Origin: Allomyces macrogynus ATCC 38327
Taxonomy: Eukaryota > Blastocladiomycota > Blastocladiomycetes > Blastocladiales > Blastocladiaceae
Direction of reading: 5' to 3'
Length of the DNA: 29,132 bases
Assembly (NCBI GenBank): GCA_000151295.1
Contig: GG745344.1
Span: 682,755 to 711,886 of the forward strand
The notes below the pieces were generated by a model, which saw only the letters and a list, made by a program, of their open reading frames with translations, was not told where the DNA came from and made no database searches. The number at the start of each line of letters is the position of its first letter. The first letter of the stretch is position 1. The position numbers and the translations under genes are program-made. This document shows positions 1 to 24,745 of the stretch, piece after piece.

Positions 1-94
1 TCGGACAGCGCAAGGCGCAGGTCGGACGCACGGGCCAGAGCGTGCCAAGCAGCGACGAGAGCGGCACATCGCCGCTTTGCGACGGCGAGCTCAC

Positions 95-2421: not shown

Positions 2422-3779
2422 ATGGCGGGATCATGGCACCCGATACAGCTGCTCCGCGACGGCATTGGCGCCGTCCCGCTCATTTTCCTGGGCATTGCCT
2501 TGGCCACGCGTTATATCCCCGTTTTCCAACGGTTTGTACGACACCCGCGCCATTTCCTCGCTAGGAACCGTCGACCGCAGGATACCTCCAACCACAGGGA
2601 ACTTGCTCCGAAATTGCTGCCAGCAACCGACGAGCGTTCCTCTAGGCCATTCCTGTCGGCTCACCGCCCTCGCCCCACTGGCACTCGCCATTTTAGCAAG
2701 TTTTACGTCGACGATGAGTCGATCCAGTACCCCATGGCCAAGCACGAGACCGTCACCTCGTTGCATCTCTTGCTGCTCTCCCTCGTCGCGCCCAGTCTGA
2801 TGGTGCTCTCCTGGAGCTGGGTGCGCGGTTTTTCCCCACTTCAAGCCGTCTACTCGCTCAACGGTGCGCAACTCCGCGCGTTCATCCTCCTCTATCTGTC
2901 GAGCGGGACCTAATTGAGCTTCTCCACCTGTAGCCTTGTTCCTGGCGCTCTCATGGACCATGGCCATCACCGACGTGACCAAAATCGTTGTTGGCCGGCT
3001 GCGACCCGACTTTCTGGATCGGTGCAAGGTACTTCTGAGCTGATTTGTCCCCGAATTGCTTGATTTCGTCGGATTTCTTCGCTCACCCACCCACCACAAC
3101 CGAACGCGATATTGTTAGCCGTTCGAAAACAACGGCACATGGACGTGTATGGGTGATGCCGACCTGGTGCGCAATGGGCGCGTCAGCTTCCCAAGCGGCC
3201 ATTCGTCACGTCCGTTGCTTGCGACCGCGCTTCGGTCCTAATTCGCTTTCGCTCACAGTGCCCTCTGCTTCACGGTAGTCACCTTTTCCGGCTGGTTCTT
3301 TGCCGCGCTCTTCATTTGGGGCACCCTCGCGGCCTCGTCCTGGCGCCGGTCGCCCTTGGTCCAGTCGGTCCTCGCCCTCTTCCTCGTCCCGCCGGCCCTC
3401 GTCGCAATCTCAGTACGTGCCCCTCGTCGCTCTCCACCACTTTGGCACCACTTCCATCTGACTAACCCGTACGACAACACAGCGCACGACTGACTACCGC
3501 CACCACTGGCAAGACGTGACTGTCGGGTCGCTGCTTGGCATCTCCGTCTCGTACCTGTGGTACCGCAGTGTGTTCGGCCGGCCGACCGCGCCCTACTCGG
3601 CGGTCCCGCTTGCCGACCATCGGTCCGGAGCGTCGTCGTCAGCCGGAAGTGTGGATAGCAGGATCATCGCAATGGGTCGGCCCTTGCCGGCATCGCCGTT
3701 GCCCGCGGGGCCCGTGGGCGCGCCGTTCCTCGCGCACGAGCAGTTGGCGAAACAGGCGGCACTGCGCGACGTGGTGTGA
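2422..3779 (+). CDS. PAP2-family lipid phosphate phosphatase (DPP1/LPP1-like), six exons
   Basis: Integral membrane phosphatase expected to dephosphorylate diacylglycerol pyrophosphate, phosphatidate or lysophosphatidate. Exons: 2422-2531, 2697-2863, 2934-3028, 3119-3204, 3259-3412 and 3483-3779; all phases agree, giving 302 residues, close to yeast Dpp1/Lpp1 size. All three PAP2 signature motifs are present: KIVVGRLRP in exon 3, PSGHS split across exons 4 and 5, and DYRHHWQDV with the preceding SR formed by the exon 5/6 junction. The S-R pair and the two motif histidines form the vanadate-phosphatase active site. Exon 2 begins with the family-typical RKFYVDDESIQYP. Hydrophobic stretches consistent with about six spans surround these motifs. 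The ATG at 2422 opens directly into the first span. Intron 5 has a clear ACTAAC branch site, and intron 2 has CTAAT. The Pro/Ser-rich C-terminus after the last motif is poorly conserved in the family. Which lipid is the main substrate cannot be told. Confidence 0.9.
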
Positions 3780-4868
3780 GCGCGCCTGGGTGCGGGCAGG
3801 GATGGCTGCCCATCTGGTGGTTTTTTGTGTAGACGCGCGCGGGATGGGGCCATTTTTGAACCTTTTTTTTTTTTTTTTTTTTTTGGCATCGCTGGTGAGC
3901 GCGCACAGTCGCGCGTGGATCGACCGTTTCTCCCCCGTCTCCCCGTGTGCGATGTGGTTCGCGGCAAAGTCCCAACAAATGGTTCGATTCCATCGAACTT
4001 TGCCGATATTTGCCGGTCCCGCCAACACTACAAAGCCAGCTCTTGGCTGTGCCATGGGTTCTGTGCTTATGTTCGCGCGCACTTATTTTGCTACGCCACC
4101 ACCACGTTTCGCTTCGTGGTACCCATGAAAGTCGCGATGAATACTTTGTTCCCCACTGGTTTATTTTCTTGTTGGCAGCCGAGCAACGCCAGGACGCGCA
4201 CGACAGACGGTGCATCGGCTGCCTCACATTTTGCACGTCAACGAAGATTCGTGCCCGTCAACCAGAAACGGAGAAAAGCACAAAAATCTTCTCTTCTCAT
4301 AACAGCCATTGCCTCAAAAGAGGTTGCCAACTCTTAAACACTGGCCCGGGCATACGATGCATACCGGCCTCCCTGGGATTTGCTGCCGCACAGCCCGGAA
4401 ACCGAGCAGCTGTCATCACGCCGCTTCTTGCGCGTCGCCAAGTGGAATTTATCGTGGCCGAGAGGTGCGCATGGCTCGTCACCAGTTTGATATTGACGAA
4501 ATGCCACATGTGCGCTGCAATGCGGAGGATGAGCCCGTTTTCGCCGCGCTTTCGAGTTTGTCGAACATCCTCTCCTTTCCGCCGCTCAGGGTGCGCAGGG
4601 CTAATTGGCCGAATTTGTTGAATGCTGACGGCAACGTGCCATCCGACAGACTTGGCCCAGCATCGCTCAAAGCGTCGTGGATCTGACCCGACGAGGCGTG
4701 TTCAACAGCATTGGCCGCGCACATCCAGCGCCGTGCGCGCAAAGCAGTAACAAGATGTTTGGGCCAGCGCAAAGATGATTTCAATTTGGCTCAACTGAAC
4801 AAAACGACATGCACTTGGCCTTGCAGACATCAAAACGGCCTCCAACAACCATCACGCACAACAATCGC
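3780..4868. other. Intergenic region between two convergent 3' ends
   Basis: Space between the stop of the PAP2 gene and the stop of the minus-strand secreted-protein gene. It contains a run of 22 T at 3863-3884 and an imperfect stem-loop at 3962-4005, annotated separately. Open frames of 170-224 codons cross it on both strands but show no conserved motif, no family match and no signal peptide. No gene is called. Confidence 0.6.
3962..4005 (+). other. Nested inverted repeat / stem-loop downstream of the phosphatase gene
   Basis: CGGCAAAG at 3962-3969 is perfectly complementary to CTTTGCCG at 3998-4005. Inside it, TTCGAT at 3983-3988 pairs with ATCGAA at 3992-3997 across a 3-nt loop. The two helices would stack on the 3' side, leaving a 13-nt bulge on the 5' side. 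It lies about 180 nt past the stop codon, where a 3' UTR element or transcript end could be. Role unknown. Confidence 0.45.
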
Positions 4869-7393
4869 TTAGTAGAGCGAGTCCGACGACTCGTCCACCT
4901 GCTTCTTGACGTACGAGTCGGTCGTGGGCGCGGCCGTCGCCGTCGTCGTCGTCGTCGTCGTCGTGGCCTTGGCGGGCTCCTGCGTGATCGTCGTCACGCA
5001 GGGCTCCTCCGTCTTGGCGGGCGATTCGGGCACAACAACGGTCGTCGTCGGCTTAGCGGCGCCCTTGGTGCAGGGCGTCGTCGCGACCGGCACGGTCGAG
5101 GTCGGGATCTCGGCCGACGGCACGGTCGTCGTCTTCTGGCCCTTGGTGCACGGCACCGACGTCTTAGGCGATTCCGGCACGACCGGCACGGTCGAGACGA
5201 TCACAGTCTCGACGCACGGAGTCGTCTGAGCGACGGGCACCGTAGCGGTCGGGATCTCAACGGCCGGGACGGTCGTCTGGCCCTTGGTGCAGGGCGTCGT
5301 GGACTTGGGCGACTCGGGCACGACTGGGACCGTCGACACGATTGTCTCGACGCACGGGGTGGTCTTGGCGACGGGCACGGTGGCAACCGGCACGGTCGCG
5401 ACGGGGATCTCAGCCGACGGGACCGTGGTGGTCTTCTGGCCCTTCGTGCACGGGATCGAGGTCTTGGGCGATTCCGGGACGACGGGGACGGTCGAAACAA
5501 TGACGGTCTCGACGCACGGGGTCGTCTTAGCCACGGGGATCGTCGCGGTCGGGATCTCAGCAGCCGGGACGGTCGTCGAGTAGGTCACAACCGGGATCGT
5601 GGTCTTGGGCGATTCCGGCACGACGGGGACGGCCGAGACGATGGTCTCGATGCAGGGCGTCGTGGTCTGGGCAACGGGGATTGTGGCCGTCGGGATCTCG
5701 ACCGCGGGGACCGTCGAGTAGGTCGTGGGTGGCACGACGGGCACCGTCGAGTAGGTCACGGGCACGGTGACGACGGGGATCTCCGTCGGGACGACGGTGG
5801 CCGTCTTGACCGGGGCCGTGCACTTCTTCTTGCGGTGGCACTTCTTCTTGGCGGGCAGCTCGCCGGCCGGGTAGGTGGCCTGCGGCGTCACGCCCGACGG
5901 GTAGGCGTTGGTCGGCTCCTCGCCAGCGACCAGGATCGTCGACGTGATCGGGGCCTCGCCACCACCGACAATAACGGTCGTCACGGGCGCGGCATCGTAA
6001 CCGTAGCCGGGCGCAGCGGGCGAACCCTCGGCAGGCTGCTCGGCCGACGGCTTGGGAGTGTCGTAGTTGTACCCACCGGTCGCCGGGGACTCGGGCGCGG
6101 CCGGAGCAGGCTGCGCGGGCGTCGTGTAGTCGTAGCCACCCGACGGGGTCGTGGGCGCGGCCGTGGGCTGCGGCGAAAGCGTGATCACGGTCGTGACGCC
6201 AGCGATAACCGTGGTGATGCACGGGTTCTCGACGGCAGCCGTCGTCGTGGCAACGGGCGTCGACTTGGCGGGCTCCTCGGTCGCGGGGATGGTGCCGGTG
6301 ATCGTCTTGGTCACCGTTACAACCGTACCCTGAACGATTGTGGTCGTGCAGTCGGCGGGGAGCGTCTCGACGGGCGCGGTCGTGTGGGGCGCGGGCACAG
6401 TCTCGGTCATCGCCGTGCGCGTCGGGTCAACGGCGATCGGGGCCGTGGTCGTGGCCGTGCGCGTCGGGTCGACAGCAATAGGAGCCGTGGCCGTCGAGGT
6501 GCGCGTCGGGTCAACGGCAATCGGGGCCGTGGCCGTCGAGGTACGCGTCGGGTCAACGGCAATCGGGGCCGTGGGCGTGGCCGTGCGCGTCGGGTCGACA
6601 GCAATAGGAGCCGTGGCCGTGGTCGTACGCGTCGGGTCAACGGCAATCGGGGCCGTGGCCGTCGAGGTGCGCGTCGGGTCAACGGCAATCGGGGCCGTGG
6701 CCGTCGAGGTACGCGTCGGGTCAACGGCAATCGGGGCCGTGGGCGTGGCCGTGCGCGTCGGGTCGACAGCAATAGGAGCCGTGGCCGTGGTCGTACGCGT
6801 CGGGTCAACGGCAATCGGGGCCGTGGCCGTCGAGGTGCGCGTCGGGTCAACGGCAATCGGGGCCGTGGCCGTCGAGGTACGCGTCGGGTCAACGGCAATC
6901 GGGGCCGTGGCCGTCGAGGTACGCGTCGGGTCAACGGCAATCGGGGCCGTGGGCGTGGCCGTGCGCGTCGGGTCAACGGCAACGGGCGCCGTGGTCGTGG
7001 GCTTGGCCGTGGTTGAGGGCACGGTGGTCGCGCCGTCTGGAAAAATGATGAAACGAGCGATGCCAGGGTGGGTGACACAAATGATGAGTTCAGCTTTTGC
7101 TGCGCAACACACACACACGCAATCCACAAGGGCTCTCTCGCCACAAACAAAATTGCGCCATCGATCACCGAACAGAAAAACAAAATGAACGTACAGACGG
7201 GCGTCGACGTCGTGGCCGCGGGGATCGACGACGAGGGCGCAACCGTGGCGGCCGGCGTCGTTGCCGTGGCCGCCGGGGTGGTCGGCGGGACAATGACGGG
7301 CACACCGTAGCCAGCGTCCGACACGGGCAGCGCCGACGTGGCGGCGATCAACGAGGCAACAACGGCCAGCGAAAGCGCAGTCTTCTTGACCAT
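4869..7393 (-). CDS. Secreted Thr/Pro-rich repeat protein, probably cell-wall or extracellular
   Basis: Two exons, 7393-7195 and 7036-4869, joined by an intron with a GTACGT donor and TTCCAG acceptor (phase T|AC), give 788 residues. The start MVKKTALSLAVVASLIAATSA is a clear signal peptide, with likely cleavage before LPVSD. Exon 2 opens with fourteen copies of a 14-residue unit (core AP-I/V-AVDPTRT plus a variable ATPT, STAT or TTAT). Next comes a Gly/Tyr/Pro stretch (GYDYTTP, GGYNYDTP), then a basic KKKCHRKKKC patch. Last come about five modules of about 45 residues built on TTPCVET, VPVVPESPK and PCTKGQ, with two Cys in most of them. A Thr run and an acidic tail (DESSDSLY) end the protein. 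Such sequence is normally heavily O-mannosylated. No C-terminal hydrophobic GPI signal is seen, so it may be secreted or disulfide-linked to the wall. The intron contains a short CA run. No named family is recognised. Confidence 0.82.
6413..7000 (-). repeat. 42-bp coding tandem repeat, about 14 units, with 168-bp higher-order period
   Basis: The 42-bp unit encodes the 14-residue AP-I/V-AVDPTRT-x4 repeat of the secreted protein. Units start at regular 42-nt steps (for example 6415, 6457 and 6499). Reading with the gene, the four variable residues run ATPT, STAT, STAT, STAT, TTAT / ATPT, STAT, STAT, TTAT / ATPT, STAT, STAT, ATTT, then a terminal unit. The array thus grew partly by duplication of four-unit (168-bp) blocks. 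The rare synonymous variant GACAGCAATAGG recurs near 6471, 6597 and 6764, in line with block duplication. Confidence 0.92.
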
Positions 7394-9291
7394 GGTGGAA
7401 AGTTGTGGTGGTGGTGGTGCGGGAACGGGCGGGAGCGGCGAGGACCAAAATCCGTCTATAAGTCTATACACACTGCGTCTTGTCCGAGCCGAGGTCGGAG
7501 AGACTGCTGGGTGGGTGGATTGGTCGTCGGGGAGAGCGGGGATGGGTTCGAGCTCATGCGGGGGCGGCCGCGGCTTTATACCCAGCGGCCGGGTGCGGGG
7601 GCTGTGCAGAGGCCGTCGACGGCGTTGTGGCGACGGGATGGCGACTTGGGGGCCATGGAAGTGCCCACGGGCGTTTGCGCAACCACAAAAAACGCGCGAG
7701 AAAAACTGGTGAAATGAACGCAAGCGTGCGCACCGCCTCCGCCACTTCGTCCCCCTAGACATGAACACCCCGTGTCATGTCCGAAAACCCGTGGCGAAAA
7801 GGAAAGGAGAGCACGCGCAACACGCAACACGCGCGCCTTGACCTCGTGGCCACCATCTATTGGCGCGCCACGTTGCGCAACGGGCCGGCGCAGTGGACAT
7901 CCAATCAATCCTTCGGAACGAGTGAGCCGAAACAACGATGAACCCTCGCTCGCGAGGCGGCCGAAAGGTCACACACCGTGTCGTTGTCGATGGCAAACGG
8001 GCCGGATGGGGCGACAAGGTCGCTGCCGAAAAACCAGACTGGCTTCTCGGCGTCCTGTCCGTTTCACCAAGCCGCTCGCCTTGTTTTCTTGCGCTTCCCC
8101 GTCCCTCTTGCATCGCGCCCTTCATGGCCACGTTTCGCACACGTCTCGCGCCCCAGAGTCCAGAACAGGAGCACGCGCACTGAATAATTCACCCGTCCAG
8201 TTCCTGAGCTGGTCTTCGCGCAGGAGAAGGGCCGTCGCTGAAGAGGACGCCGGTCTTCGGATTGCTCAGAACAGGAGCGCGAGGCGCTAGTCGCGGTATA
8301 GTTACATGCTTGCTGCGTTTATGCAGTAATTCGCCAGGCCACTTGGTGGAGATAATCAGCGTGGATTATGAAGTCATTACAAACGAGGACGACGCTGCAT
8401 GATCCCGCAGCGCGTGCTGCATCAGTCCAACATCAATCGTGGCCGCGCGGCAGCAAAAGACAACAACAGCCAGCTCGATGCATCGTGGGCTGATTCATGG
8501 CAAGCACAGCGATTCACCACATTTGCGACACGAAAAAGACGTGCCTGATCGTGCAAGGCAACACCACGACGCCCGCGTTCCACGGACTAATCTCCAATGT
8601 TGCCGTTGGGCGTTGCATGCTCCCTGTGGGAACTAACCCACGGTCTTTCCACTGCCAACCGCGGGCCGGATTGGCAACATTTGTGCGTGCGGTGGGCGGC
8701 GTTGCGGGGCACGCTCGTGCTTCGTGCTCGATCTTGCAGAAACAATACGCGGGTCGATGAATGCCGGCGCGCTTGCCAAAGAGCAAGCGCGCGCAGCCTG
8801 GATCGCTTGTCAGCGAGCGTACTGGTTATCCGACACGGGCAAAGCACAGCACGAAAGAAGCCGACCTGCGTGCGGCAGATGATTCTCACTTTCTGAATTC
8901 CAACAGCAGCCACAGCCTGGCCCAACGACTTCATTCTCAGCCTGTCCTTGGCCAATCCATTCGGATACCAAGCTCCGCGATTGGTCATCAGCTGATGTTT
9001 TTGACGAGAGGAGAGGATAACGGTGTGGGTGTGCACATCGTTGCGTGCGCCTTAACCGCGCCGTGCGCCTGGACCTGTCTGTGGTTCAGCGCCAATTTAG
9101 GATCCACCTGGAGAGCAGGGGCGCGACAACGGCCTTGGACAACTCGAGATGGTGGCGAGGCCGACGTCGTCGTGAGAGAATCCGCAGTCGCAGAGATGCA
9201 GGAGGGTGGAGAGCGCTCTCCTGCTCCTCTTCCTCGACCTCGCACCAAACCTGCCTTCAGCACCGACCTTGGCCTTGACCACAACCGATTC
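7394..9291. other. Intergenic region upstream of the secreted-protein gene
   Basis: Apart from the promoter of the minus-strand secreted protein at the left, I see no supportable gene. Several open frames (up to 172 codons on plus near 7772-8290 and 149 codons on minus near 8587-9036) lack domains, signal peptides or plausible splice-linked partners. A locally AT-richer stretch lies around 8280-8400. The long plus frame from 8761 becomes meaningful only from about 9292, where it enters the disrupted four-Cys copy. Confidence 0.5.
7575..7580 (-). promoter_or_regulatory. TATA box of the secreted repeat-protein gene
   Basis: On the minus strand this reads GGGTATAAAGCC, a consensus TATAAA, about 182 nt upstream of the ATG at 7393. 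A weaker TATAG element lies near 7456-7470. A strong TATA box suits a highly or conditionally expressed wall-protein gene. Assignment is by position and sequence only. Confidence 0.5.
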
Positions 9292-9834
9292 ATGCCACTC
9301 GCTCTCAACGTCCAAGGTGTCCTCATAGATGGCATTGTCTCGCGCGATTTCGGCGCCCCGTTCACCATGAACTCGCATGATCTTCACATCGTCGAGTGCC
9401 CGGGCTACGTGACGCGCTGCGGCTCTCTACTTGGCCGGTCCAGCTGCGCCCAACGATCACGTCGCTATTGTGACGTGCGAGTACGCCATTCAACGAGCCG
9501 ATGCCAGCGGCGATGCCGGATCAATATGGCTCGAGAGCGTCACGAAAGCGTCCGTGACCCCCATCCTCGTGCGCCCGCCCGCATCCGATACCGCGGTTGT
9601 GAACCCACCCGGCGTGCGGTCGTTGCAGGTGGCCTCGACCACGGATCGGATCCTCGGTATGGGCGCGCACGGCCAGCACTACGGCTCGCTCGAGGACAAG
9701 AACACGCTGTGGCGGCAGGATCAGGACAAGACCGTGAAATTGTGCCCGCTCGCGAGGTCGTCATGCTCGCTGGGGACAATATGTATGCACGCGGGTTGAA
9801 GTTGTCGTTTTGGTGCCCGCTCTCTCGACCTTGA
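9292..9834 (+). pseudogene. Frame-disrupted copy of the four-cysteine FWCP domain (relative of the gene at 14104)
   Basis: Translation from ATG 9292 gives RDFGAPFT and VECPGYVTR, matching RPFGNYPT and DRQCADRGTISR of the gene at 14104. Near 9415 the match moves to the next frame and continues as AALYLAGPAAPNDHVAIVTC, then STTDRILGMGAHGQ and NTLWRQDQDKTVKLC. Near 9750 it returns to the first frame for REVV and LKLSFWCP before a stop at 9832-9834. All four cysteines of the intact relative have counterparts. Downstream DNA in yet another frame is Thr/Pro-rich, like the stalk of the relative, but no membrane span is recoverable. Two opposite-sign frame changes mean either a decaying duplicate or two sequence errors. 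I see no splice signals that would remove the frame changes. Confidence 0.6.
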
Positions 9835-10419
9835 CAACGATGAGTGCGACAGCACCACCAACGCCGACAACGACACCCGCTGCTGATGCGATGAACGCCA
9901 GCGAACAGTCCGCACAAAGGCCAGTTTGCTGGCGCTGTCACAATCAAGTCACTGAAAGGTCACTCACGACAGATTGACCTCATGGACCGCCGACCAGGCA
10001 CCTGGACGACGCCCACCGACCTTGGCCACGTCGCGCCCGACACGTGCATCAAGAATTCGACTGGAATCGCGCTCACTGACAAGTTGCTTGTGACGCGACG
10101 CGACGTCCAGCTTGCAAGCTGAAGCAGTGACAGACAGTGAGGGAACGCCACCGTGCGTCTGCTGCATGTGCGACAGACAGCCTTTGACACGCGTCTTCAT
10201 GGTCCCTTCAGTGTTCTTTGGAGGTGACCAGCGCGCACGCACTCGACCTTGACCAAACGCTCAAATGACAGATCGCTGCGACCTGACGCAGCCGCGATAA
10301 ATATATAACGCGCGGCGCCCCCGCAAGTCCAAGTGTCGCCCGAGCCTTGTCCCGCGCCGTCCTTCCGCCAACAACACCCTGCCTGCCGCCCGCTCCCTCT
10401 CCTTTCCTCATCAACGACC
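9835..10419. other. Upstream region and leader of the rvt gene
   Basis: The left part holds the degenerate Thr/Pro-coding tail of the disrupted copy. The right part is the promoter and leader of the reverse transcriptase gene, including a TATA box at 10302-10308. No other coding sequence is supported. Confidence 0.55.
10302..10308 (+). promoter_or_regulatory. TATA box of the rvt gene
   Basis: The sequence GATAAATATATAACG contains a strong TATA element in otherwise GC-rich DNA, about 115 nt before the ATG at 10420. The leader between them is pyrimidine-rich. TATA-type promoters are typical of inducible genes, which fits what has been reported for fungal rvt genes, but this is inference. Confidence 0.5.
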
Positions 10420-13329
10420 ATGGCGTACGTTCACACCAACGCAAACCGTGGCCGCGGCCGTGGTCGTGGCCGTGGTGGCGGTGCCATTCCTCCCCCAGCA
10501 CGCATGCCGCCGTTCCGCTTTGGTCCTGACAACCCGACCGCCGGCCCATCCTCCGCGACCGTTAGTCTCAACGCGACTTCGAGCTCGGCCTATTCGGAAA
10601 TTCTGCGCGCGACGACCGCGACCAAGATCGAGGAGTTTGGCGGCGTTAAGACGCGATTCGACGCGCACTATGCCGCGCTCGTCGCTAAGGCCGACCAGGC
10701 CGCGACGCCCGTTGAGGTGCTCGAGACGTATTTCCACGGGCTCAAGGACCTGAAGGCCGCGCAGACCGAGTTCCACGGCAGTGTCAAGTCGCTGCAGCCG
10801 GTTGTCGACGGGTTCCGTGCGAATCCGCTCGCGCCCGCGTCGGCGGTCCAACCGTGGGTCGACGCGCTCAAGACCGAGGTGCAGCGCGGGTCGGCGCGCG
10901 TCAAGTACGCTGATCTGTTTGGCAAGGTGCTCAACGAGCACGCCGTGTTCACGTCGTCGCTGTCGTCGTCGGCTGCGGCGACCGGTGCCGGTGCCGCCGA
11001 GGACGAGCGCGTAGCCGCGTCGGATGCGGCCTATGTCGCGCTCAAGGACGAGACTCGCGCCGAGTTTGCGTCGCACGCGTTCACGGCGCCCGACGTCGAC
11101 ACGGCCGCGTTCAAGACGTTCCTGACCGACACGCTCTTCACGTTCCCGCACGCCGAGCAGCGCAAGCATTGGGACAAGCTGGTCAAGGATACCGCCGACT
11201 TTGCCAAGAAGCTCGAAGACACGACGGTGACGGTCAGCGACGTGCACCAGTGCATCCGTGGCTTGCTCGCGTCGGACCTGCTTGACGAGAGCCGCGCTGC
11301 AGCGCTGCGCGCCGTCGAGGACAATGCGCTCGTGCACGGTGAGCTCGCGTCGGTGCTGAACATCATGCTGAGTCGTATCGACGAGTGGGCGTGGCCCGCG
11401 TCGGGCGTCAAGCTCGAGCTGCGACGCATGCTCAACGGGCGATTCCGCGTGTTCATGGAAGAGGACCTGGTCACAGCCATTTTCCTGCAGTATGCCGGGA
11501 CCAAGTGGTCGGTGCACTTCTTCAACCAACTGCACGACGAGCGGTACAGTGCCGACTCGTGTCTGTCCAAGCACGAGGTGGAACTGGCCAAGCCCAACGC
11601 GGCTGCGGCAGCCGACCGGGCGGCGTCGCTCATCATGGCGCGGCGCACCAAGCTCGAGCAGTACTCGATGGCGTCGCTGCCCAATAGCATGTCAGACCAA
11701 GCCGGGCGTGCTGCCGTCTACTCGGACGAGGATAAGGACGACAGTGCCGGTGTCGATGTGGCCGGCAAGGAGACGGCGTCGGCCGTCGAGAGCAAGCAGA
11801 ACCTGCTGCATCTGCTCACGACCGAGGCGCGGTACCACGCGCGGTTCCACAGCGAGACGACGCCGTTCACGGTCGTGCGCACCGACTTCAAGTGGTTTGG
11901 GCCGTCGATTGTGCACGAGAACCTGCTCGCGCTGCTCGAGGTGCTCGGCGTGCCGGTCAAGTGGCGCACGTTCATGCACAAGTTCCTCGCCGCGCCGCTC
12001 ATTCTCGACAATGAGTCGTCGCCCCGCGTGCGCGTGCGTGGTATCCCGATTTGCCATATGCTGAGCACGCTGTTTGGCGAGTTGATGCTGTTCCCGCTCG
12101 ACTACTACCTGACGCGCACGACCAAGGTGACCATGGTGCGCATGCTCGACGACGTCTGGATGTGGTCGTCGAACCCTGCCGAGATGCAGCGCGCCTGGAC
12201 CAACATGCTCGAATACGCGGCCCTGGCCGGGCTCGCGCTCAACCTCGACAAGTCCGGGTCGGCGGTGATCCATGCGCGCAAGGGGGATGCCGCCGCGCCT
12301 GTCGCGTCTTACGCGCCGGAACCGCTCCCGCAGTCGCGGGTGACGTGGAGCTCGCTGGTCATGCACGCCGACGCCACGTTCCGGCCCGACTACGAGAACG
12401 AAGTCAAGGTGCACGTTCTCGAGGCGCAGGCGCGACTTGCGGCGGCGCCCACGGTCCTGGCGTGGATCAACGTCTACAACCAGTACGCGCGGTTCTTTGT
12501 GCGCAACCTCGGTGCGCCGGCGCGCGTCTGGGGCAAGTCGGGGATTCTGCACATTCAGAGCGCACTCGTGCAGATTCACAAGGACATGTTCCCAGAGACC
12601 GACGGCAACGTTATTGCCGCGCTCGCCGAGCGGCTGCGTCGCGTGGACGCTGACGTGGCCGACTCGCTGCTCGACGCGTGGGTCTACTGGCCGCTGACGA
12701 TGGGTGGGCTCGAGGTGCACAACCCGTTTGTCACGATCGCGGCGTGGCTGCACGCGATCGACAGCGAGTGGGACAAGGACGCCAAGACGCTCGACCAGGG
12801 CGACGATTTCGACGAGCTCGACGAGAGCAACCGCAAGGAGTACAAGGGTGCCGTCGGGCGGCACGAAAAGTTCTTCAAGGGCAAGATGGGCGAGGAGGCC
12901 GACCGGCTGTACCGTGTGGGCGACAAGGCCGCGGCCGACGCGATTATGCAGGAGCTGCACTCGGACGACGGGATCGGCGACCTTCGGTCGCGCATGGCGC
13001 CACTGCCGAACCTCGAGGCCTACGTGCGCCGGCATCACGCCAAGTGGGCCCCGTGGGTCCGGCACTACAACCAGATGCTCGCGCGCATCCAGCCGTGCCG
13101 CGCCGGGTCCACGTCGGTGAGTCTGGTCGGGCCGCTGAGCAGACTGGCGGGCGACGGGCCCATCAAGAGCAACCTGCGCAGCATGACCTGGTACTGGTCG
13201 TGGATCGTAGCCATGTATGGCGACTCGATCCTCAACATGTTTGGCACACTCGAGTTTATGCCCGCCGATGGCGTCCCCCGCGCCATGGTGAATGCCGTCA
13301 AGAAGGAAAAGATCAAGTGGGGCGTGTAA
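10420..13329 (+). CDS. rvt: rvt-type cellular reverse transcriptase-related protein, intronless
   Basis: One uninterrupted frame of 969 residues from ATG 10420 (preceded by CGACC). It belongs to the rvt genes: single-copy, non-mobile reverse transcriptase relatives of fungi and some other organisms, reported to polymerise nucleotides and to be induced under growth inhibition in Neurospora; their cell role is unsettled. Order of parts: a Gly-Arg-rich N-terminus (about residues 9-22); a helical, Ala-rich region to about 300; the lead-in RRMLNGRFRVFMEEDLVTA and FLQYAGTKW (about 330-370); a long loop; catalytic motif FTVVRTDFKWFGPS with Asp489; RGIPICHMLSTLFGE and LFPLDYYL; the catalytic pair in RMLDDVWMW (Asp577, Asp578); GLALNLDKSG near 605-613; and the family C-terminal signature WPLTMGGLEVHNPF. 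All three catalytic aspartates are present. No integrase, endonuclease, RNase H, LTR or poly(A) tail is seen, which argues against a retroelement. In other family members I recall His before the DD pair; here it is Leu. Confidence 0.88.
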   Translation: MAYVHTNANRGRGRGRGRGGGAIPPPARMPPFRFGPDNPTAGPSSATVSLNATSSSAYSEILRATTATKIEEFGGVKTRFDAHYAALVAKADQAATPVEVLETYFHGLKDLKAAQTEFHGSVKSLQPVVDGFRANPLAPASAVQPWVDALKTEVQRGSARVKYADLFGKVLNEHAVFTSSLSSSAAATGAGAAEDERVAASDAAYVALKDETRAEFASHAFTAPDVDTAAFKTFLTDTLFTFPHAEQRKHWDKLVKDTADFAKKLEDTTVTVSDVHQCIRGLLASDLLDESRAAALRAVEDNALVHGELASVLNIMLSRIDEWAWPASGVKLELRRMLNGRFRVFMEEDLVTAIFLQYAGTKWSVHFFNQLHDERYSADSCLSKHEVELAKPNAAAAADRAASLIMARRTKLEQYSMASLPNSMSDQAGRAAVYSDEDKDDSAGVDVAGKETASAVESKQNLLHLLTTEARYHARFHSETTPFTVVRTDFKWFGPSIVHENLLALLEVLGVPVKWRTFMHKFLAAPLILDNESSPRVRVRGIPICHMLSTLFGELMLFPLDYYLTRTTKVTMVRMLDDVWMWSSNPAEMQRAWTNMLEYAALAGLALNLDKSGSAVIHARKGDAAAPVASYAPEPLPQSRVTWSSLVMHADATFRPDYENEVKVHVLEAQARLAAAPTVLAWINVYNQYARFFVRNLGAPARVWGKSGILHIQSALVQIHKDMFPETDGNVIAALAERLRRVDADVADSLLDAWVYWPLTMGGLEVHNPFVTIAAWLHAIDSEWDKDAKTLDQGDDFDELDESNRKEYKGAVGRHEKFFKGKMGEEADRLYRVGDKAAADAIMQELHSDDGIGDLRSRMAPLPNLEAYVRRHHAKWAPWVRHYNQMLARIQPCRAGSTSVSLVGPLSRLAGDGPIKSNLRSMTWYWSWIVAMYGDSILNMFGTLEFMPADGVPRAMVNAVKKEKIKWGV

Positions 13330-14103
13330 ACAGCAAAATAGGGGCTTGGTTTTGGTTGAATGCAAATTGAATTGTTGATCACATCTCTGGTTGTTGCAAC
13401 TTCCAGCAGCACCTGACCTTGTTTCGACCCTGCTAAGCAATGCTCTTTGGCGTTCTCAAAGCAAGTGTCTTGCTCCGTGCGAGGCAAATTTGGCCTAGTC
13501 CGTTCCCGTGATTTTCCTGTCTTCTCTTCGTGCCTTCTCAGCGTGTACGAGTCAAAACGGCGCTCGCTGATGACGAGCGGCGATATTTGTGGCCGCGTTT
13601 AGCGCATCCCTTCCCCACTCCACGTCCTCGCTATTCACGACCGTTACTGAGGCTCAGCCGGGTGGAGAATCCGAATCAAGTCGGTTCGCACTTGATTTTG
13701 TAACGAGCAGTCTCTCAAGATTGCCAGTCGACATGAGAAATGAACGTTGGTCCGGCAGCTCGTTGGCGAGACGACTCGTCCAATCAGGCTGTTGATCATG
13801 GCCAGCGACGCCCAAGCCACAACGCACCACGCAGGAACAGCCCAAAAACGCGTTCTTGACCTCAAACGGATAAGTATCCACCTGGGCGTCGACCATGGAC
13901 AGGCTGTGAAGCTTCCCTCGAGCGAGTGGTGTCGTCCTTGCTCCTCGCCGCAGTTGCGGCTCATCGTCGACGACGTTGCCAAGTGCCAGGCCTCCATTGC
14001 GCAATCAATCAACTCAAGTTCGACGTTTCCAAGCCGCGTTCATCGCCCGCACTATCCCCACCACCGCCCAAACCATCACCGCCGCCGCACGCTGCGCACG
14101 ACC
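13330..14103. other. Intergenic region and possible upstream extension of the four-Cys gene
   Basis: This follows the rvt stop. The frame of the next gene stays open upstream from 13747, with an in-frame ATG at 13798, but that extension (MASDAQATTHHAG onward) has no signal peptide and is low-complexity near its end (His/Pro/Arg). It is treated as leader. Minus-strand open frames of about 120 codons here show no recognisable feature. Confidence 0.5.
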
Positions 14104-14976
14104 ATGAGCGTGAACGAGACCTACGTTCGCGTAACCCGCCCATTCGGCAACTACCCGACCAACACGCTCGTCGGTGTCATCGACCGACAATGCGCCGACC
14201 GCGGCACGATCTCGCGGCTCATCGTCTACCCCTCACCGTCCAACCGCAACGACCTGATTGGACTCGCGGTCATGTGCTATGCCGGCAACCCGCGCGACGG
14301 CAACGATGGTGTGTCCAGCGCAATCTTCAAGTACGGCAACACGACGGACACGACGGCGACGCCCATCACCATGGAGTCGAATGACCCAACGGCAGCGCCG
14401 GGTCTGCGCGGGTTCGCCGTGGCTGCCGACAAGTCGCACGTGTTTGGCATCTCGGCGTACAAGCAGACGGCCGGGACGTTGCTCCAGGGCACGCTGTGGC
14501 GGCAGGAGCAGGACGCGCAGGTGCAGCCGTGTTTGCTTGGCGGGCTCGCCGTGTACATGCCCAAGGACGTGGTGCTCGGGATGAACATGGCGTTCTGGTG
14601 CCCGCCCGCGGCCGCATCAACGACCACGAGCTCCACGGTAACAAGCACAAGCACGACCACCTCGTCGTCGACAGCGACGTCGGGACCCGACACGCGCAAT
14701 GACCAGAGCACGTCCTTACCCGCGCTCGAGATTGGTTTGGGTGTCGGCGCCGCCACCCTGGTTGCGCTCATCGCGGGACTCGTCTTTTATTGTCGTCGGC
14801 AGCGACAGCGCGCCAACTTGTCAAGGCATAAACCAAGTAGTGAGCGTGGATTATCGGCAGCAGGAACCGCCACGCCTGTCGAGCAACCGGCGTCGCCATT
14901 GTATCTTCCACCAGCGCCTTCCGCAACGCACACAGGATCAAGGAGCCCAGACACGTTGTATTTGCCGGGGTCGTAA
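14104..14976 (+). CDS. Single-pass membrane protein with an undescribed four-cysteine domain and Ser/Thr stalk
   Basis: Encodes 290 residues from ATG 14104 (context ACGACC). Residues 1 to about 167 form a compact beta-type domain with exactly four Cys: DRQCADRG, VMCYAGN, VQPCLLGG and FWCPP. All four are also in the disrupted copy at 9292-9834, which suggests two structural disulfides and an extracytoplasmic location. A Ser/Thr-only stalk (AAASTTTSSTVTSTSTTTS) follows, then one hydrophobic span at about 209-231 (GLGVGAATLVALIAGLVFYC) and a basic stop-transfer (RRQRQR). The cytoplasmic tail is Pro/Ser-rich and ends in two similar LYLP segments (SPLYLPPAPS, DTLYLPGS). The layout is that of a stalked surface sensor or adhesin. 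No N-terminal signal peptide is visible at this ATG or the in-frame upstream one. The protein may insert by its span alone, or a spliced 5' exon has been missed. I do not recognise the family. Confidence 0.72.
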   Translation: MSVNETYVRVTRPFGNYPTNTLVGVIDRQCADRGTISRLIVYPSPSNRNDLIGLAVMCYAGNPRDGNDGVSSAIFKYGNTTDTTATPITMESNDPTAAPGLRGFAVAADKSHVFGISAYKQTAGTLLQGTLWRQEQDAQVQPCLLGGLAVYMPKDVVLGMNMAFWCPPAAASTTTSSTVTSTSTTTSSSTATSGPDTRNDQSTSLPALEIGLGVGAATLVALIAGLVFYCRRQRQRANLSRHKPSSERGLSAAGTATPVEQPASPLYLPPAPSATHTGSRSPDTLYLPGS

Positions 14977-16100
14977 CAATAAATAGACCGATCCAAACGA
15001 ACTCGACAATGCGCTCTCGTAAGCGCTCCAGACGAGCGAGAAATATCAAGCACATGCCCGCCACAGTTCTTTCTCCGTTGCCAGTTCGGCGATAGTAGAG
15101 CACAGCACCAAGAGTAAGAGAGAAACAGCCCATCACGTCGCTCCGTTTCCGCTCACTCCGCAGCACCGGGAATGACCACAGCACCATTCAGTCGATCCAG
15201 TCCAGTTCATCGGCGCAGCCCACGTCCATCTCAGCCGCACCACCAGTCCACGAGTGGAGTGTTGAGCGTGCGCGCTTATCAAACGTCGTCGCGCACGCAG
15301 CGAGAATGAACCGGAGCAGAATTGCAAATCCGGGTGCTCCAGTCGCTGATCGTGCTTGTCGGTCGACGGCATGCCACGCGAAGCAGCTGGTGTCAAGTCG
15401 TCTCAAGTCGGGAGCAGTCGAGGTTGTCTGATCATGTCAGGAGCTCCGTGCAGAGCGCCGACCGGGTCGAGAGCGCTGAGGCGCGTGCTGCCGATGCGAT
15501 TGCAGGTGGTCCGGGTGCGGGTTCAGTGTGTCGGTCCTGTCAGGCCGTGAAAACGGCGTCGGCGTTGGTGAAGGAGGGCGGCCCGAGTGGAGACGAGTGG
15601 AGACGCCCAGAAGCCGCAACGCGTCCACGTCGCGCCCCTCATGGCTCGTTGGACCCGCCTCTTCGCGACCACCTCGTCCGCACGCCGCCACCGACCCTGA
15701 CCACCGTGCCATACAGGCCCGTAACTGTCGGCGCGTGCGCACCGAGCGGCGCCGGATCCCCATCAGCGCAATGTGGGGGGCGGCAGGGCCGTTACGCGCC
15801 CGCACGCCGCTCGTTGCCAGTTTCGCTCGTGCCGAACTCGCCAAGTGCCCCAGGCGCCCTCGCTTCCTTGCGCGACAGGAATCATGCTGGCCGACGGCAC
15901 ACCTCGCGTGCGCAACGATCGGCGCCGAACCGGCCCGGGCTGCCTGGTGCGCTGCGGCGGCGGCGGCGGCCACGACGCGTGATGCGCGACGCGACGGGCA
16001 TAAAGACCGCGACGGGTATAAAGACCGCGACGGACCCGCCACATTGATCTGCGCTCATCGCCGACAAGACCGACGCGTTTTTCCCAGCACCGCAACCACC
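14977..16100. other. Upstream region of the PEPCK gene
   Basis: About 1.1 kb with no supported gene. Overlapping frames of 100-240 codons are Arg/Pro/Ala-rich on both strands. The right end carries a duplicated TATA element and a pyrimidine-containing leader for PEPCK. The length suggests a sizeable regulatory region, consistent with carbon-source control known for fungal PEPCK genes. Confidence 0.55.
15992..16027 (+). promoter_or_regulatory. Duplicated TATA element (two tandem 18-bp units) of the PEPCK gene
   Basis: Two adjacent 18-nt units, CGACGGGCATAAAGACCG (15992-16009) and CGACGGGTATAAAGACCG (16010-16027), differ by one base. The second contains a consensus TATAAA at 16016-16021, about 80-85 nt before the ATG; the first has CATAAA. 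A third partial CGACGG follows. The duplication may give two alternative start-site selectors. Confidence 0.6.
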
Positions 16101-18083
16101 ATGTCCTCGATCCCGTCTATTGCCGAAGTAGGTGATCGTCGCTATGGATGCTCTCCACCGCTCGCGCTCATGCTCGCGCTCTTGACGGCCGATCCATTCG
16201 CCTGTGCCGACGCTGATACACGCTGATCCTGGCCCTCACCTGTTCTTTTTCCGCGCGCTCCAATAGACGGTTCAGGAGCAGCTCCACCAGGAGGCTGGTA
16301 TTGACTTCTCCAAGGAGATCAAGCACAACCTCTCAGTCGCGCAGCTGTATGAAGACGCGCTCAAGCATGAGCCCGGCACGTTCCTGTCGTCGGCAGGCGC
16401 GCTGATCACGTCGTCGGGTGCCAAGAAGGGCCGCTCGCCGCGCGACAAGCGCATCGTCGAGGAGGAGACGACCGCGCGCGATATCTGGTGGGGCCCCGTC
16501 AACACCAAAATGTCCGAGGCCGTCTTCATGGTCAACCGCGAGCGTGCCGTCGACTACCTCAACACGCGCTCACGTCTGTACGTGATCGACGCTTTTGCCG
16601 GCTGGGACCCGGAGGCGCGCATCAAGGTGCGCGTCGTGTGCGCGCGTGCTTACCACGGTTCGTATTACCCGTATTGCCCGCTCTTGATTTGCGCGAGCGG
16701 CGCTCCGAGATGCGCCGCGACGTGTTTGGTTGTGCTGTCAGCCCCGCGCGGGTCCAACGCGCTTCGCTTCCTGCCGCCGTTCCTTCGTTCATACAGCGCA
16801 CTTTCATTTGCTGCCACGGCACGAACAATTGATGAAGAGGCTAAAATCGCGCGCATTCTCGAACCCAACGTCAAACAGCCCTGTTTATGCGCAACATGTT
16901 GATCCGCCCGACCGACGAGGAACTCGCCGACTTTGGCCACCCCGACTTCACCATCTTCAATGCCGGCCAGTTCCCGGCGAACCGGTACACGACGGGCATG
17001 ACGTCGACGACGTCGGTCTCGATCAACTTCAAGCGCCGTGAGATGGTGATTCTTGGCACGCAGTACGCGGGCGAGATGAAGAAGGGCGTGTTCACGATCA
17101 TGCACTACTTGATGCCCAAAGCCGGCATCCTGTCGCTGCACTCGTCGGCCAATGAGGGCCCTGACGGCGACGTGTCGTTGTTCTTTGGTCTGTCGGGCAC
17201 GGGCAAGACGACGCTCTCGGCCGACCCGCACCGGTTCCTGATTGGCGACGACGAGCACTGCTGGTCGGACAATGGCATCTTCAACATTGAGGGCGGGTGC
17301 TACGCCAAGTGCATTGACCTCTCGGCCGAGAAGGAGCCCGAGATCTTCAATGCGATCCGGTTCGGGTCGGTGCTCGAAAACGTCGTCTTCCACCCGCAGA
17401 CGCGTCTCGTCGACTACACCGACAGCTCGCTCACGGAGAACACGCGCTGCGCCTACCCGATCGAGTACATTCCCAACGCCAAGGTGCCGTGCGTCGGCGG
17501 GCACCCGAAGAACATTATCCTGCTCACGTGCGACGCGTTTGGCGTGCTCCCGCCCGTCGCCAAGTTGACCGCAAATCAATCGATGTATCACTTCATCTCG
17601 GGCTATACGGCCAAGATCGCTGGTACCGAGGACGGGGTCACGGAGCCTCAGGCCACGTTCTCGGCGTGCTTTGGGCAGCCGTTCCTGGTCTGGCACCCGA
17701 CCAAGTACGCCAACATGCTCGCCGAGAAGATGGCTGAGCACGAGGCCAACGCGTGGCTGATCAACACGGGCTGGAACGGCGGCAAGTACGGTGTTGGCAA
17801 GCGCATTGCGCTCAAGTACTCTCGCGCGATCATTGACGCGATTCACTCGGGTGAGCTCGCGCAGCAAGAGTATGAAGAGTACCCCGTCTTTGGCCTGCAC
17901 ATCCCCAAGGCATGCCCGGGCGTGCCAGAGAACGTGCTCAACCCCAAGACGGCGTGGCTCGGCGATGCTGACGAGTTTGAGGCCACGGTCGCCAAGCTCG
18001 CCAACCTCTTTATCGAAAACTTCAAGCTCTACGAGGACCACGCGTCGCCCGAGGTTCTGGCGGCTGGCCCAGTGCTCGAGTAA
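16101..18083 (+). CDS. PCK1: Phosphoenolpyruvate carboxykinase (ATP), three exons
   Basis: Converts oxaloacetate and ATP to phosphoenolpyruvate, CO2 and ADP in the cytosol: the committing step of gluconeogenesis from acetate, lipids or ethanol. Exons 16101-16127, 16267-16657 and 16879-18083 give 540 residues, the usual length for ATP-type fungal enzymes. Exon 1 encodes only MSSIPSIAE before GTAGGT. The exon 2/3 junction (CAC G|CC) restores the conserved [13 protein letters not shown]. Family motifs in order: [16 protein letters not shown] (substrate side), [16 protein letters not shown], the kinase-1a P-loop [11 protein letters not shown] at about 243-253, the metal/ATP region [33 protein letters not shown], and [15 protein letters not shown]. 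All key Lys, Asp, Thr and Arg residues expected at these motifs are in place. Intron 2 (221 nt) is fully open in one frame, so intron retention would yield a long insertion and not an immediate stop. Confidence 0.97.
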
Positions 18084-19115
18084 CCGTGACGCTCACCGTG
18101 TCGCGCCGCGCCTTGTCACGTCGCGTCCAAGTAGTTGTCAAGTTGGGAATCTCTTCTTGTTGTTTATTTCGCGCGCAAGTTCTTTCTTCGCGTGCGCACG
18201 CGCCTCCATTTCGCTCTTCTCCCGTTCTCCCTGTCACGGTCGTCGTGGCCGCAAGCTGAAAACAATGGGCAAGTGTCGCTGCAGTGTACCTATGTACCAT
18301 TATCAAGAAATGACAAATGTAACACAGACTGTCCTTGTGCGTGTTTTTCAGCCTGAGCCCCCATCTTTCGATTGAGTCTAGTACGGGACTTGCAGTGAAA
18401 GGCTATCCACCGTTTCACATCCAAGTGTGAGCGGCCGAAACTGTGCGGGGAGGGGGGGGGGGGGGGGAAGAGGAGGTGAAGGAGCGCGCCAGCTCTGCGT
18501 TCCCCCTGCCCGCAGTCGTCGTGCTCATGGCTTGATTCAAAGGCATTTCAGCACTTTGAGCGCTACCAAAGACTCTCCACTGCTTCCCGACCAGACGCAA
18601 ATGATCTGGGGGCACAGACGTCGCGTCGTGCCTGCTGGATCGCGGAGACTGTCATTGTGTCCGTGTTGGAGCGCGTTCTCAGCGGGCCGGTTTAGAGCCT
18701 CGCTCAGCGTGCGGTTCGCGCGTGCCGGTGCAATTTGAAGAGTCTCGCGCTTCAAGATTGACCACGTCGCGACGACGCGTCGCGATGCACACCTCACGCT
18801 CTCGCGACTGACGCAGCGGACGAGGTCTGGTTCGACAAAATAGCATGACAAAACTGCACTGCAGTCGATGGGAGAACGGAAATCGCTCCCGCGCATGGAT
18901 GTTGAAACGAGAATGAAGAGCTGAGAGGAACCTTGAGGATGGAAAAAGAGTACCCCAAGACTGACAGGGAACAACCAAGGAAGCATCGATGCACAGCCCA
19001 AAGGATGTGTATTTTTCCGTTCAAACAACTCGCACACGGCCCTCGACACCGCGGCGCACCGACGAGCGACGCGACACGGCACGCAGTGCCGCGCAACGAC
19101 CTTGGCCAACAGCAC
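18084..19115. other. Intergenic region between convergent PEPCK and P0 genes
   Basis: Contains the 3' flanks of both genes. A G-run (16 G at 18452-18467, preceded by GGGGA) stands out; on transcripts from the plus strand it could form a quadruplex. Open frames here, including a 192-codon minus frame at 18537-19115, show no family features. Confidence 0.55.
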
Positions 19116-20051
19116 TTAGTCGAAAAGACCGAAGCCCATGTCGTCGTCCTCCTCCTCTTCCTCCTCCTCGACAACGGCAGCGGCCGCGGCCGGGGCAGCC
19201 TCCGACGCGGCGGGCGCGGCGGCGGCGTAGGCCTCGGGGTTGTTGATGCGGTCCTTGACGGCGTCGGCGAGCGGGAACGAGATCTCGGTGGCGAGCGCAA
19301 TCGAGAGCACGTTCTTGTAGGCGTTGATGAGCGAGTGCGGGACCGAGGCGACGGTCGGCACGCCAATGGCGAGCGAGACGGCGGCGATGGCGCGGATACC
19401 GGCAAGCAGGTGGCCGAGCAGCTCCGACTCCTCAATGTCGAGCACCGAGGGGTGGAAGGTGTTGCCCTCGTTGAAGACCTGCGTCACGTTCACACCGTAG
19501 GTGAAGGGCGAGATGTTCATCATGTTGAGCAGCGTCGCCTCCGACGGGCCAACCTTCGACCCGGCCTTGATGAGCGGGTAGTCGGTCGTGATCTCGACCA
19601 TACCCTTGGTGATCTTGGTGGGGATACCGAGGGCCTGGAAGAACGACGTCTTACCGGGCTCCATACCGGTGTTACCGCCGGGCACCGTGACGTCGACGGG
19701 GGCGACGGCACCGGCCTTGGCGGGGGCGCGGACACGGTCCTCGACAATGGCGTCGCGCACGGTCTTGAGGTCCTCGTTGGTGAAGACAAAGCCAATGTTG
19801 CCGCGCACGTGCGGGAGCAGCTTCTCGTACGACGGGTTGTCGGCCATGAGCGTGCGGAGAGCGCGACGCACGGTCGTGTTCTTGCCCATCAGAATCTGCG
19901 CCTGGCCGCGCAGCTTGCGACGGACCTGGTGCATCTGGTTCGAGCCGACATTGTCGACCGAAATGACAAAGATCGACTTGTGCGACTCGAGCAGGTGCGC
20001 GAGCTTGTCGAAGTAGTCGGCCTTCTTGTGGCGCGCGTCTCCCTTAGACAT
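19116..20051 (-). CDS. RPP0: 60S acidic ribosomal protein P0 (uL10), single exon
   Basis: Encodes 311 residues, the normal fungal P0 length, from the ATG at 20051 (upstream context GCCAAG). P0 is the base of the ribosomal stalk: it binds the GTPase-centre rRNA and P1/P2 dimers and recruits elongation factors. The start [17 protein letters not shown] is the typical rRNA-binding N-terminus, followed by [35 protein letters not shown] and GNIGFVFT. The middle domain shows [18 protein letters not shown]. The C-terminus has an Ala-rich hinge, an acidic run and the universal stalk tail [10 protein letters not shown]. No intron is needed, although ribosomal protein genes are often intron-rich in fungi. 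Codon choice is strongly C-ending, as expected of a highly expressed gene. A TTTAAA element sits about 40 nt upstream of the ATG. Confidence 0.98.
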
Positions 20052-21677
20052 CTTGGCTGGTTGCAGGTGGCTAGGGGGTCTCGAAAGAGAGCTTTAAAGA
20101 CGGCTACATTGCGAGGGTGGTGGGGAGCGGTCGGTCAGCGTTGGTGCGCGAGGACGAGGTGGTAGCGTCGCGTGCGCTGGTCGTGGCGGGTCCAAACGTA
20201 CCCTCGCGTGAAGAGAGAGCAAGAACGGGGTCGCGGGCCAACGGTGAGGAAAAGATGGCTGGCGGTGCGTCCAAACCGGCGGCCTCGGGCTGTCGACAGC
20301 ATCACGCGGGCGCACGTGCGCGTTGCCATGCGGCCCAACGCGCGCGACCAAGTCATGCCAGTGTCAGGTGACGCAAGTTCCGTCAGCAAGGCCGTGGTCC
20401 GCCGGCGATCGCGTGCCACCACGTCTGACGCCGATCGCGAGCCTGTGTGGGCGCCAAGCCGATCGGCGGCAACCGCGTGCGCCCCCACGTCAAATTGAAC
20501 AGAAACCGACCGCGACAACAACACAGCTTGCTCGTCGTCGTCGGCCACCAGGGCCCGGCGCAGAACAAACGCCCCGTTGACGACCGCGACTGCAACACCA
20601 CGACGGCGGCCCGGCCGGCCAGCGCCCCAAGGCGGTCCGGTGCACACGACGCAGAACGCGCGCGTTCCAGTGAGGGGCGATGGCGAGCGGGTGCGCGCCG
20701 CTGCTGCATTTGATGGCGGCGTTGATGTCGCGCGCGTGCGGGCGGGAGCGGCCGGGAGGCATACAGCAGCAGCAGATGGTGGCAGCCGCCGTACTTAAGT
20801 GCGGTGGCCCTGCCCGTGCGCGCGCAAGCACTTCACCTCCGCCGCGCGCGACTCTTGCTCCACCGACACCACCACCGGCGCCAACTCCACCGACAACCGA
20901 CACCCCCGCGCGTCGGATCCCTAAGCTGCCTGACTCGCTGCAACGCGTGCATCTGCTAGCCCCGCGACCGCTCGCTCGGCTCGCGCCCACGAGCCAGTCT
21001 TCATCAAAGGCGACGCTGCCGCCCGACCTGTCCCTTAGTCGTTCCTGCCCGCCACCGGACAGGGCGCAACCGAACCGCCACCAAGACCGCCAACTCAGCT
21101 CGCCTTGCGTGCCACCTGCCCTTGACGCGGTCGCTGGTTCGGGTCCTTGTCGCTCGACTGGCCTCCAACCGTCGACGAACCCCAAAGGAACCCTCCTGCG
21201 AGCTCGCTGCGAGCGACGCGCCGCTGCCACCTGTTCTCGTGTCGGCGCCCGTCGTGTTCGCGCACAAGTTCGTCGGCTCGGTCGGCCGGCCACCCTGCCA
21301 GGTGCGTGCGCTGCGCCCAACCAATCCACTGCCCAATGCCCCCCGCCGCAACCCCGTCGTGGGTCGTGGCCGTGTCGCGTGTGCACACGTCTCCCAACCA
21401 ACCTGCAGGCCTTGTCGTCGACACACGGCGCGCCGGGCCCGCCGGTCTCTCGCTCCCCGCTCACCCTGCGACCCGCCACGGACAATGCGTCTCACCATGC
21501 CGCCGCCGCTCCCCCCCCCACCCCGCACGCCCTTGTCACGGTGCTACCGCGCGCCGCCGTCGTCGTCGTAGATCTGCACCGCGAGCCCGCTGCGGTCGTC
21601 CAGCACCTTCTCGCGAACGACTGTGACCGCCGCTCCCATCTTGCACGCTCCCACACGCACGCGCCGCCGACTTCGCC
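20052..21677. other. Divergent promoter region between P0 and the WC-2-like gene
   Basis: 1.6 kb of spacer. A plus-strand open frame at 20680-21771 is Pro/Ala/Ser-rich and ends inside the WC-2 exon 1 region in another frame; it shows no domain and is not called. The P0 core promoter (TTTAAA at about 20092-20097) is at the left end. The right end is CT- and CCG-rich and probably carries the WC-2 leader. Confidence 0.55.
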
Positions 21678-24577: not shown

Positions 24578-24745
24578 GTTCTCGCTTTGATCCGTTGCGC
24601 TGAACAACAACGACGCAGCTCGCCTCTCGTCGCAGCGCCTGCTTACTCTTCGCTCGCTCCGCTCCACCGCGCGCGCACGCATCCTCCTGCCCTTTGGCCG
24701 ACCCTGCCGCTCCTCTCGCTCTCTCCATCAAGGGCCCCACCAAGC

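Follow-up and report, generated by a model that had tools for sequence, protein, structure and literature searches.

A duplicated, rvt-like reverse transcriptase gene with a probable intron in Allomyces macrogynus

The window analyzed here is a 29,132-nucleotide stretch of the Allomyces macrogynus ATCC 38327 genome (C59:682755-711886; 54 Mb in 75 contigs) and contains, on the plus strand at 10420-13329, a gene for a protein related to reverse transcriptases (RTs), hereafter gene A. The original prediction had described gene A as an intact, intronless and single-copy rvt gene. Its frame is open throughout, with 969 codons, and all residues named in that prediction are present. We could thus confirm the frame and the motifs, and the interpretation as an rvt-type, nondispersed gene that has an intact active site and evolves under purifying selection is supported; by contrast, the gene is not single copy, having an intact paralogue, B, elsewhere in the genome, and it is probably not intronless. 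The features are as follows, all on the plus strand, with residues numbered in the 969-codon frame and conservation counted over 12 aligned rows (gene A and the homologues P0002-P0012):

10296-10308, plus strand: TATA-like element GATAAATATATAA, read directly, 112-124 nt upstream of the ATG
10420-10424, plus strand: proposed exon 1 (ATGGC); the arrangement ATG-NC^GTACG is the same in paralogue B
10425-10565, plus strand: proposed phase-2 intron of 141 nt (GTACGT...CTGAC...TTAG), earlier read as an RG-rich N terminus
10566-13329, plus strand: proposed exon 2 including the stop codon, from the frame and the alignment with paralogue B; spliced protein 922 amino acids (aa)
11422-11508, plus strand: RT lead-in, residues 335-363 (RRMLNGRFRVFMEEDL...FLQYAGTKW); R335, R336, G340 and G360 invariant in 12/12
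11509-11865, plus strand: variable loop, residues 364-482, from the lead-in to motif A, taken as loop 2a; 95-171 residues across the 12 rows
11881-11907, plus strand: motif A, TDFKWFGPS, with the catalytic D489 (codon 11884-11886); D in 10/12 rows
12040-12066, plus strand: motif B, GIPICHMLS, residues 541-549; G541 and S549 identical in 12/12
12148-12153, plus strand: motif C Asp-Asp pair, residues 577-578, identical in 12/12
12241-12252, plus strand: N608-K611, which we take to be of motif D type; K611 in 12/12, N608 in 10/12
12703-12729, plus strand: GGLEVHNPF signature, residues 762-770; GGL and F770 in 12/12, P769 in 11/12

Judged from these residues, the active site of gene A is intact: the catalytic aspartate of motif A and the Asp-Asp pair of motif C were both read at the places predicted. 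The GGLEVHNPF signature is present as well, although it is not C-terminal as had been stated and lies about 200 residues ahead of the C terminus. The loop ahead of motif A has about 120 residues, the motif numbering being placed by eye. A repeat search of 8000-16000 found one 24-nt inverted pair within the gene.

Twelve homologues (P0001-P0012) align to the gene A protein with 26-92% identity, and the frame is therefore more than a product of chance. The closest proteins are from A. javanicus and A. arbusculus, followed by those of Blastocladiella, Geranomyces, Phialocephala and Apophysomyces. The RT_UG37 profile (PADLOC PDLC03776) matched residues 66-783 with 283 bits, the next RT class giving 35, and was the best profile in all nine other homologues scanned (P0004-P0012). 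Pfam found only RVT_1 in the protein, at 25.1 bits and under the cut-off of 29.6, in agreement with the predicted lack of integrase, endonuclease and RNase H; NCBIfam gave weak RT matches only and PHROGs one weak RT family (21 bits).

The AlphaFold model, computed with 12 sequences (mean pLDDT 72, pTM 0.63), aligns to solved RTs and has low confidence (pLDDT < 50) in residues 1-55 and in the loop segments 385-400 and 429-452. VIA ordered the fold matches as R2 and LINE-1 polymerases, group II intron RTs, DRT9, DRT2, diversity-generating retroelement (DGR) enzymes and spliceosome chains, the last presumably Prp8, while the best profile match in the Protein Data Bank (PDB) was the DRT9 chain 9ioa (E 9.5e-9, about 87 positions). 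These matches show an RT and thumb fold and not a function. The spliced 922-aa product would begin with a long helical N-terminal part and continue into a right-hand RT core, in which the variable loop precedes motif A; a helical thumb comes next, then the GGL signature, and the C-terminal part would again be helical.

The claim that gene A is single copy did not hold. A six-frame search of the genome found at least three loci, A, B and B', and the search with the RT_UG37 profile returned the same three; copy numbers from such searches are lower bounds. Paralogue B (C59:787288-790077, minus strand), about 94 kb off, is intact and 80% identical to A, while B' consists of pieces on another contig (C67:990087-991465), one of them with a stop. 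B and B' resemble each other on both sides (80% over 3.0 kb downstream and 81% over 1.1 kb upstream) and the RT part of B' is closer to B (88%) than to A (80%), which identifies B' as the duplicate of B. Of the gene, the 9-kb stretch around B' yielded the 3' half alone, lacking motif A, and the part compared has four indels of a single base and another of three. The differences between B' and B by codon position (0.085, 0.054 and 0.215) are still highest at third positions, and B' thus seems to have been broken recently. A. javanicus has both an A type and a B type, on contigs of equal length (302806), and in a tree computed without B', A joins A and B joins B (100/99), the order within B not being resolved. 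Together, these place the duplication before the split of the two Allomyces lineages.

The surroundings of B have a partner region on C67. For the A region, window 1-8700 and 19100-23000 gave no long second copy in the genome, only short pieces; within 8700-15300, the search covered the RT gene and one neighbor. The phosphoenolpyruvate carboxykinase (PEPCK) gene has copies on C54 and C72. The A. macrogynus protein AMAG_18994 (P0013) matches at 98% over the rvt part and at 83% elsewhere; its public model contains the C-terminal RT part only, joined to a stretch matching contig C61 at 83%, and reflects either a rearrangement or a model error. Upstream of paralogue B lies an 87-nt direct repeat with 87% identity (L007:6780-6866 and 7067-7153).

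The comparison with paralogue B also bears on the claim that the gene is intronless, as 10425-10565 looks like an intron common to A and B that was missed at first reading. The stretch of A begins with GTACGT and ends with TTAG, with a CTGAC starting 40 nt before the 3' end; the equivalent stretch of B has 101 nt, GTACG...CAG, in the same phase. The two have 72 identical positions of 100 aligned, with gaps, a score reached by none of 500 shuffles. Excising the stretch from A joins ATGGC to TCTCAAC and gives a protein of 922 aa starting MALNATSSS, and the corresponding 101-nt excision in B yields 928 aa starting MTLNATTSS; the gene models of P0002 and P0003 begin MALNAT. Left unspliced, B has an in-frame TGA in the stretch and its first Met only at residue 46, so that B needs the intron. 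Residues 2-48 of the unspliced A have no counterpart in 11 homologues and are of low confidence in the AlphaFold model. On this evidence, gene A probably contains a 141-nt intron; rvt genes can carry introns at conserved positions. In the public model of the A. javanicus protein P0001 (GGF32_008164), part of the upstream gene is fused to the RT gene at SFC-LNATSSS. This is probably an annotation fusion, and its junction at LNATSSS suggests the same acceptor in A. javanicus.

Selection was measured between the two intact paralogues of the genome, using the spliced alignment and 16 codon windows. Over 915 codons, dN/dS was 0.26 (NG86), 0.25 (LWL85) and 0.10 (YN00). The predicted selection is thus purifying, and a ratio near 1, named beforehand as the outcome that would speak against it, did not occur. 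The loop is looser than the rest: windows 300 and 360 have the highest and third highest dN of the 16 (0.46 and 0.27), with dN/dS of about 0.49 and 0.45. After the GGL signature, in window 720-780, dN is about equal to dS, and part of the C-terminal region appears to diverge freely or under new pressure.

We put at roughly 55% the reading that gene A is a cellular, nonmobile rvt-type RT gene, one of two intact paralogues, whose product is a stress-responsive untemplated polymerase. The anatomy, the intact active site, the purifying selection, the low copy number, the duplication and the probable intron were all computed here. The activity itself is drawn from reports on relatives: by analogy with these, the polymerase would add nucleotides without a template, with a protein residue serving as primer, it would act as an oligomer, and its activity would respond to stress. 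Y689 and Y925, the sole tyrosines conserved throughout the 12 aligned rows, are candidates for the priming residue. The talk summary from 2023 in PMC10680173 reports untemplated polymerization and a relief of stress for which the catalytic residues are required, and the conference reports on relatives describe untemplated activity. That bacterial rvt products multimerize and use protein priming is reportedly, by title, the subject of a paper from 2018.

Several observations weigh against this reading. The known cellular rvt genes are the best place for gene A, going by the descriptions of that group and not by verified rvt sequences, and its presence in more than one copy differs from the usual description. 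Both Foldseek and VIA put R2 and LINE-1 polymerases first, at 10-14% identity and above the bacterial RTs. Two scans for prokaryotic relatives gave 25 and 37 pattern matches, the patterns being partly fungal, and none was confirmed; the link to UG37 therefore rests on the profile. Finally, P0010 and P0011 have A and V in place of D489, which makes a noncatalytic role possible in part of the family. In these two, R343, G494 and N608 are changed as well, but the Asp-Asp pair and K611 are retained in long open frames; by sequence, they appear to be a lineage with an altered active site.

Among the alternatives, an RNA-templated cellular polymerase with a dedicated RNA, similar to telomerase or to DRT2 and DRT9, fares best, though we regard it as rather unlikely. 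A preprint places most UG RTs in one clade with telomerase reverse transcriptase (TERT) and reports class 2 UG enzymes that use an RNA template, and the structures of DRT2 and DRT9 are among the fold matches; against this stand the conference reports of untemplated activity in relatives. It is distinctly less likely that the polymerase fold serves as a scaffold without need of catalysis: P0010 and P0011, with their changed residues, have frames of 962 and 963 aa, yet D489 is kept in gene A and in nine of the 11 other rows, and D577 and D578 in all 12.

Similarly improbable is that the 969-residue form with the RG-rich N terminus is the real protein, either always or by intron retention under some conditions. 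The 141-nt stretch can be read through in frame, but so can 44% of its shuffles, and 26% of the open shuffles score equal or better in codon usage. Its codon score, -205, falls between those of the exon chunks (-180 to -164) and the intergenic mean (-220, best -195), a contrast somewhat flattered by the overlap of the exon chunks with the training sequences of the codon table. One other reading frame is open across the stretch, with a marginally better score (-202), and the third-position GC of the stretch is 0.60 versus 0.865. Overall, the stretch does not look coding, and paralogue B has a stop and a length of 101 nt in the same place. RG tracts occur in four of 12 homologues, though at unrelated positions. 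Of the 13 proteins scanned for such Arg-Gly-rich tracts, five have them (P0004, P0005, P0007, P0008 and the window at 10447-10485), the tract of the window falling within the proposed intron. For annotation, the lesson is that in GC-rich DNA an intron that is in frame and open can pass for the N terminus of a protein.

The prediction that gene A is cellular and nondispersed is supported by the contrast between its three loci and the 55 RVT_1 matches in the genome. Of the latter, 50 are above the cut-off and 12 have one identical score, which, at the level of profile scores, is what copied elements would be expected to show; gene A ranks 52nd, with 28.4 bits in the genome scan and under the cut-off. 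A many-copy LINE or LTR polymerase as the best match, the finding that was to count against the prediction, was not seen among the sequence profiles, where RT_UG37 comes first, although it is partly mirrored in the ranking of folds. Gene A is flanked by a 25-nt direct repeat (9703-9727 and 14490-14514, one mismatch) that chance does not explain. The repeat sits in both flanking genes, themselves remote relatives within one family (31% identity), and was not found in the 9.5-kb stretch around paralogue B; for these reasons, we read it as coding sequence that the two genes share and not as the end of an element.

Descent from a mobile LINE-like element, as a remnant or as a young member that has lost the endonuclease, is thus very improbable, given the low copy number, the lack of endonuclease and RNase H domains in Pfam, the poor RVT_1 score, the dN/dS of 0.10-0.26, the occurrence of both types in A. 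javanicus and the position of the repeat. Of the features expected of non-LTR elements, gene A has neither an endonuclease domain nor many dispersed copies, and a LINE or LTR origin was rejected on copy number, domains and selection. An origin from phages or plasmids was likewise rejected, as tblastn found no match in plasmids (gene A protein and P0012) or phages (gene A protein). Viral contigs gave 23 pattern matches, none confirmed.

The strong TATA box of the original prediction is not supported to that degree, the TATA-like element being weakly supported against shuffles. The paralogues have GCGATAAATA in common at -126/-130, a length reached by 10 of 300 shuffles, and a longer, 15-nt ungapped upstream match has a score reached by 5 of 300; the shared GCGATAAATA is at most suggestive of a promoter element, and the inducible expression that the prediction drew from the box is conjectural. 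The flanking genes at 9392-9757 and 14104-14973 belong to one gene family, the upstream member having a stop in the matched stretch, and no Pfam family fits the downstream member. The neighbors in 16845-18080, 19119-20060, 22237-22947 and 24743-26944 include PEPCK, the 60S ribosomal protein P0 and a PAS-domain protein, and the same neighborhood has a protein with a sub-threshold zinc-finger match. At about 6400-7050, on the minus strand, lies a repetitive coding stretch with many near-identical units of the type VDPTRTATPTAPIA.

The family itself is already known; the duplication and the probable intron amend the first reading. For the question of what rvt genes do, two intact paralogues and a broken third are natural material for asking which parts are fixed, which diverge and which copy answers stress. 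The rvt genes are reportedly cellular genes related to reverse transcriptases (Gladyshev and Arkhipova 2011).

The rvt and RT literature drawn on consists of PMC10799480, PMC5718144, PMC10680173, PMC12632851, PMC8934634, PMC3520738, PMC5678591 and PMC12440569, with PMC12483538 for its reference list; there, rvt genes are described as domesticated, patchily distributed and single copy, with a large loop 2a, and the RT tree of one study groups RVT with non-LTR elements. The RVT1 and RVT2 of PMC4920403 are transposon genes and thus a different use of the name. Judged by title, the literature found under UG37 was off topic and that on Allomyces and rvt concerned mitochondrial genomes only. A bolder proposal is that fungal rvt genes are the eukaryotic branch of the bacterial UG37 RTs and that the Allomyces pair is kept by a divided role in stress or defense, with untemplated, protein-primed synthesis as its basis. 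We consider it improbable: the 283-bit profile match speaks for the branch, and the RT tree that places RVT with non-LTR elements speaks against it. If it were true, the fast stretch after the GGL signature would be the part differing in partner or substrate.

Compared with known systems, gene A has the RT and thumb fold in common with the R2 and LINE-1 polymerases over about 450-500 aligned residues, but at low identity, and unlike these it lacks an endonuclease and is not dispersed. The antiphage RTs DRT9 and DRT2 have the RT fold in common with it but are much shorter proteins. The RT_UG37 enzymes, which PADLOC lists as defense-associated RTs (DRT), are bacterial, while the host of gene A is eukaryotic; their profile exceeds all other RT classes of the library, and the match to a profile listed among antiphage candidates invites comparison with the DRT enzymes. 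With the rvt genes, gene A has in common an RT core without mobility domains, a large insertion before motif A, the motif A aspartate and the motif C Asp-Asp pair (D489, D577 and D578), purifying selection and a low copy number. The rvt genes are usually single copy and Allomyces has two intact copies and a broken one, a difference that we do not take as diagnostic.
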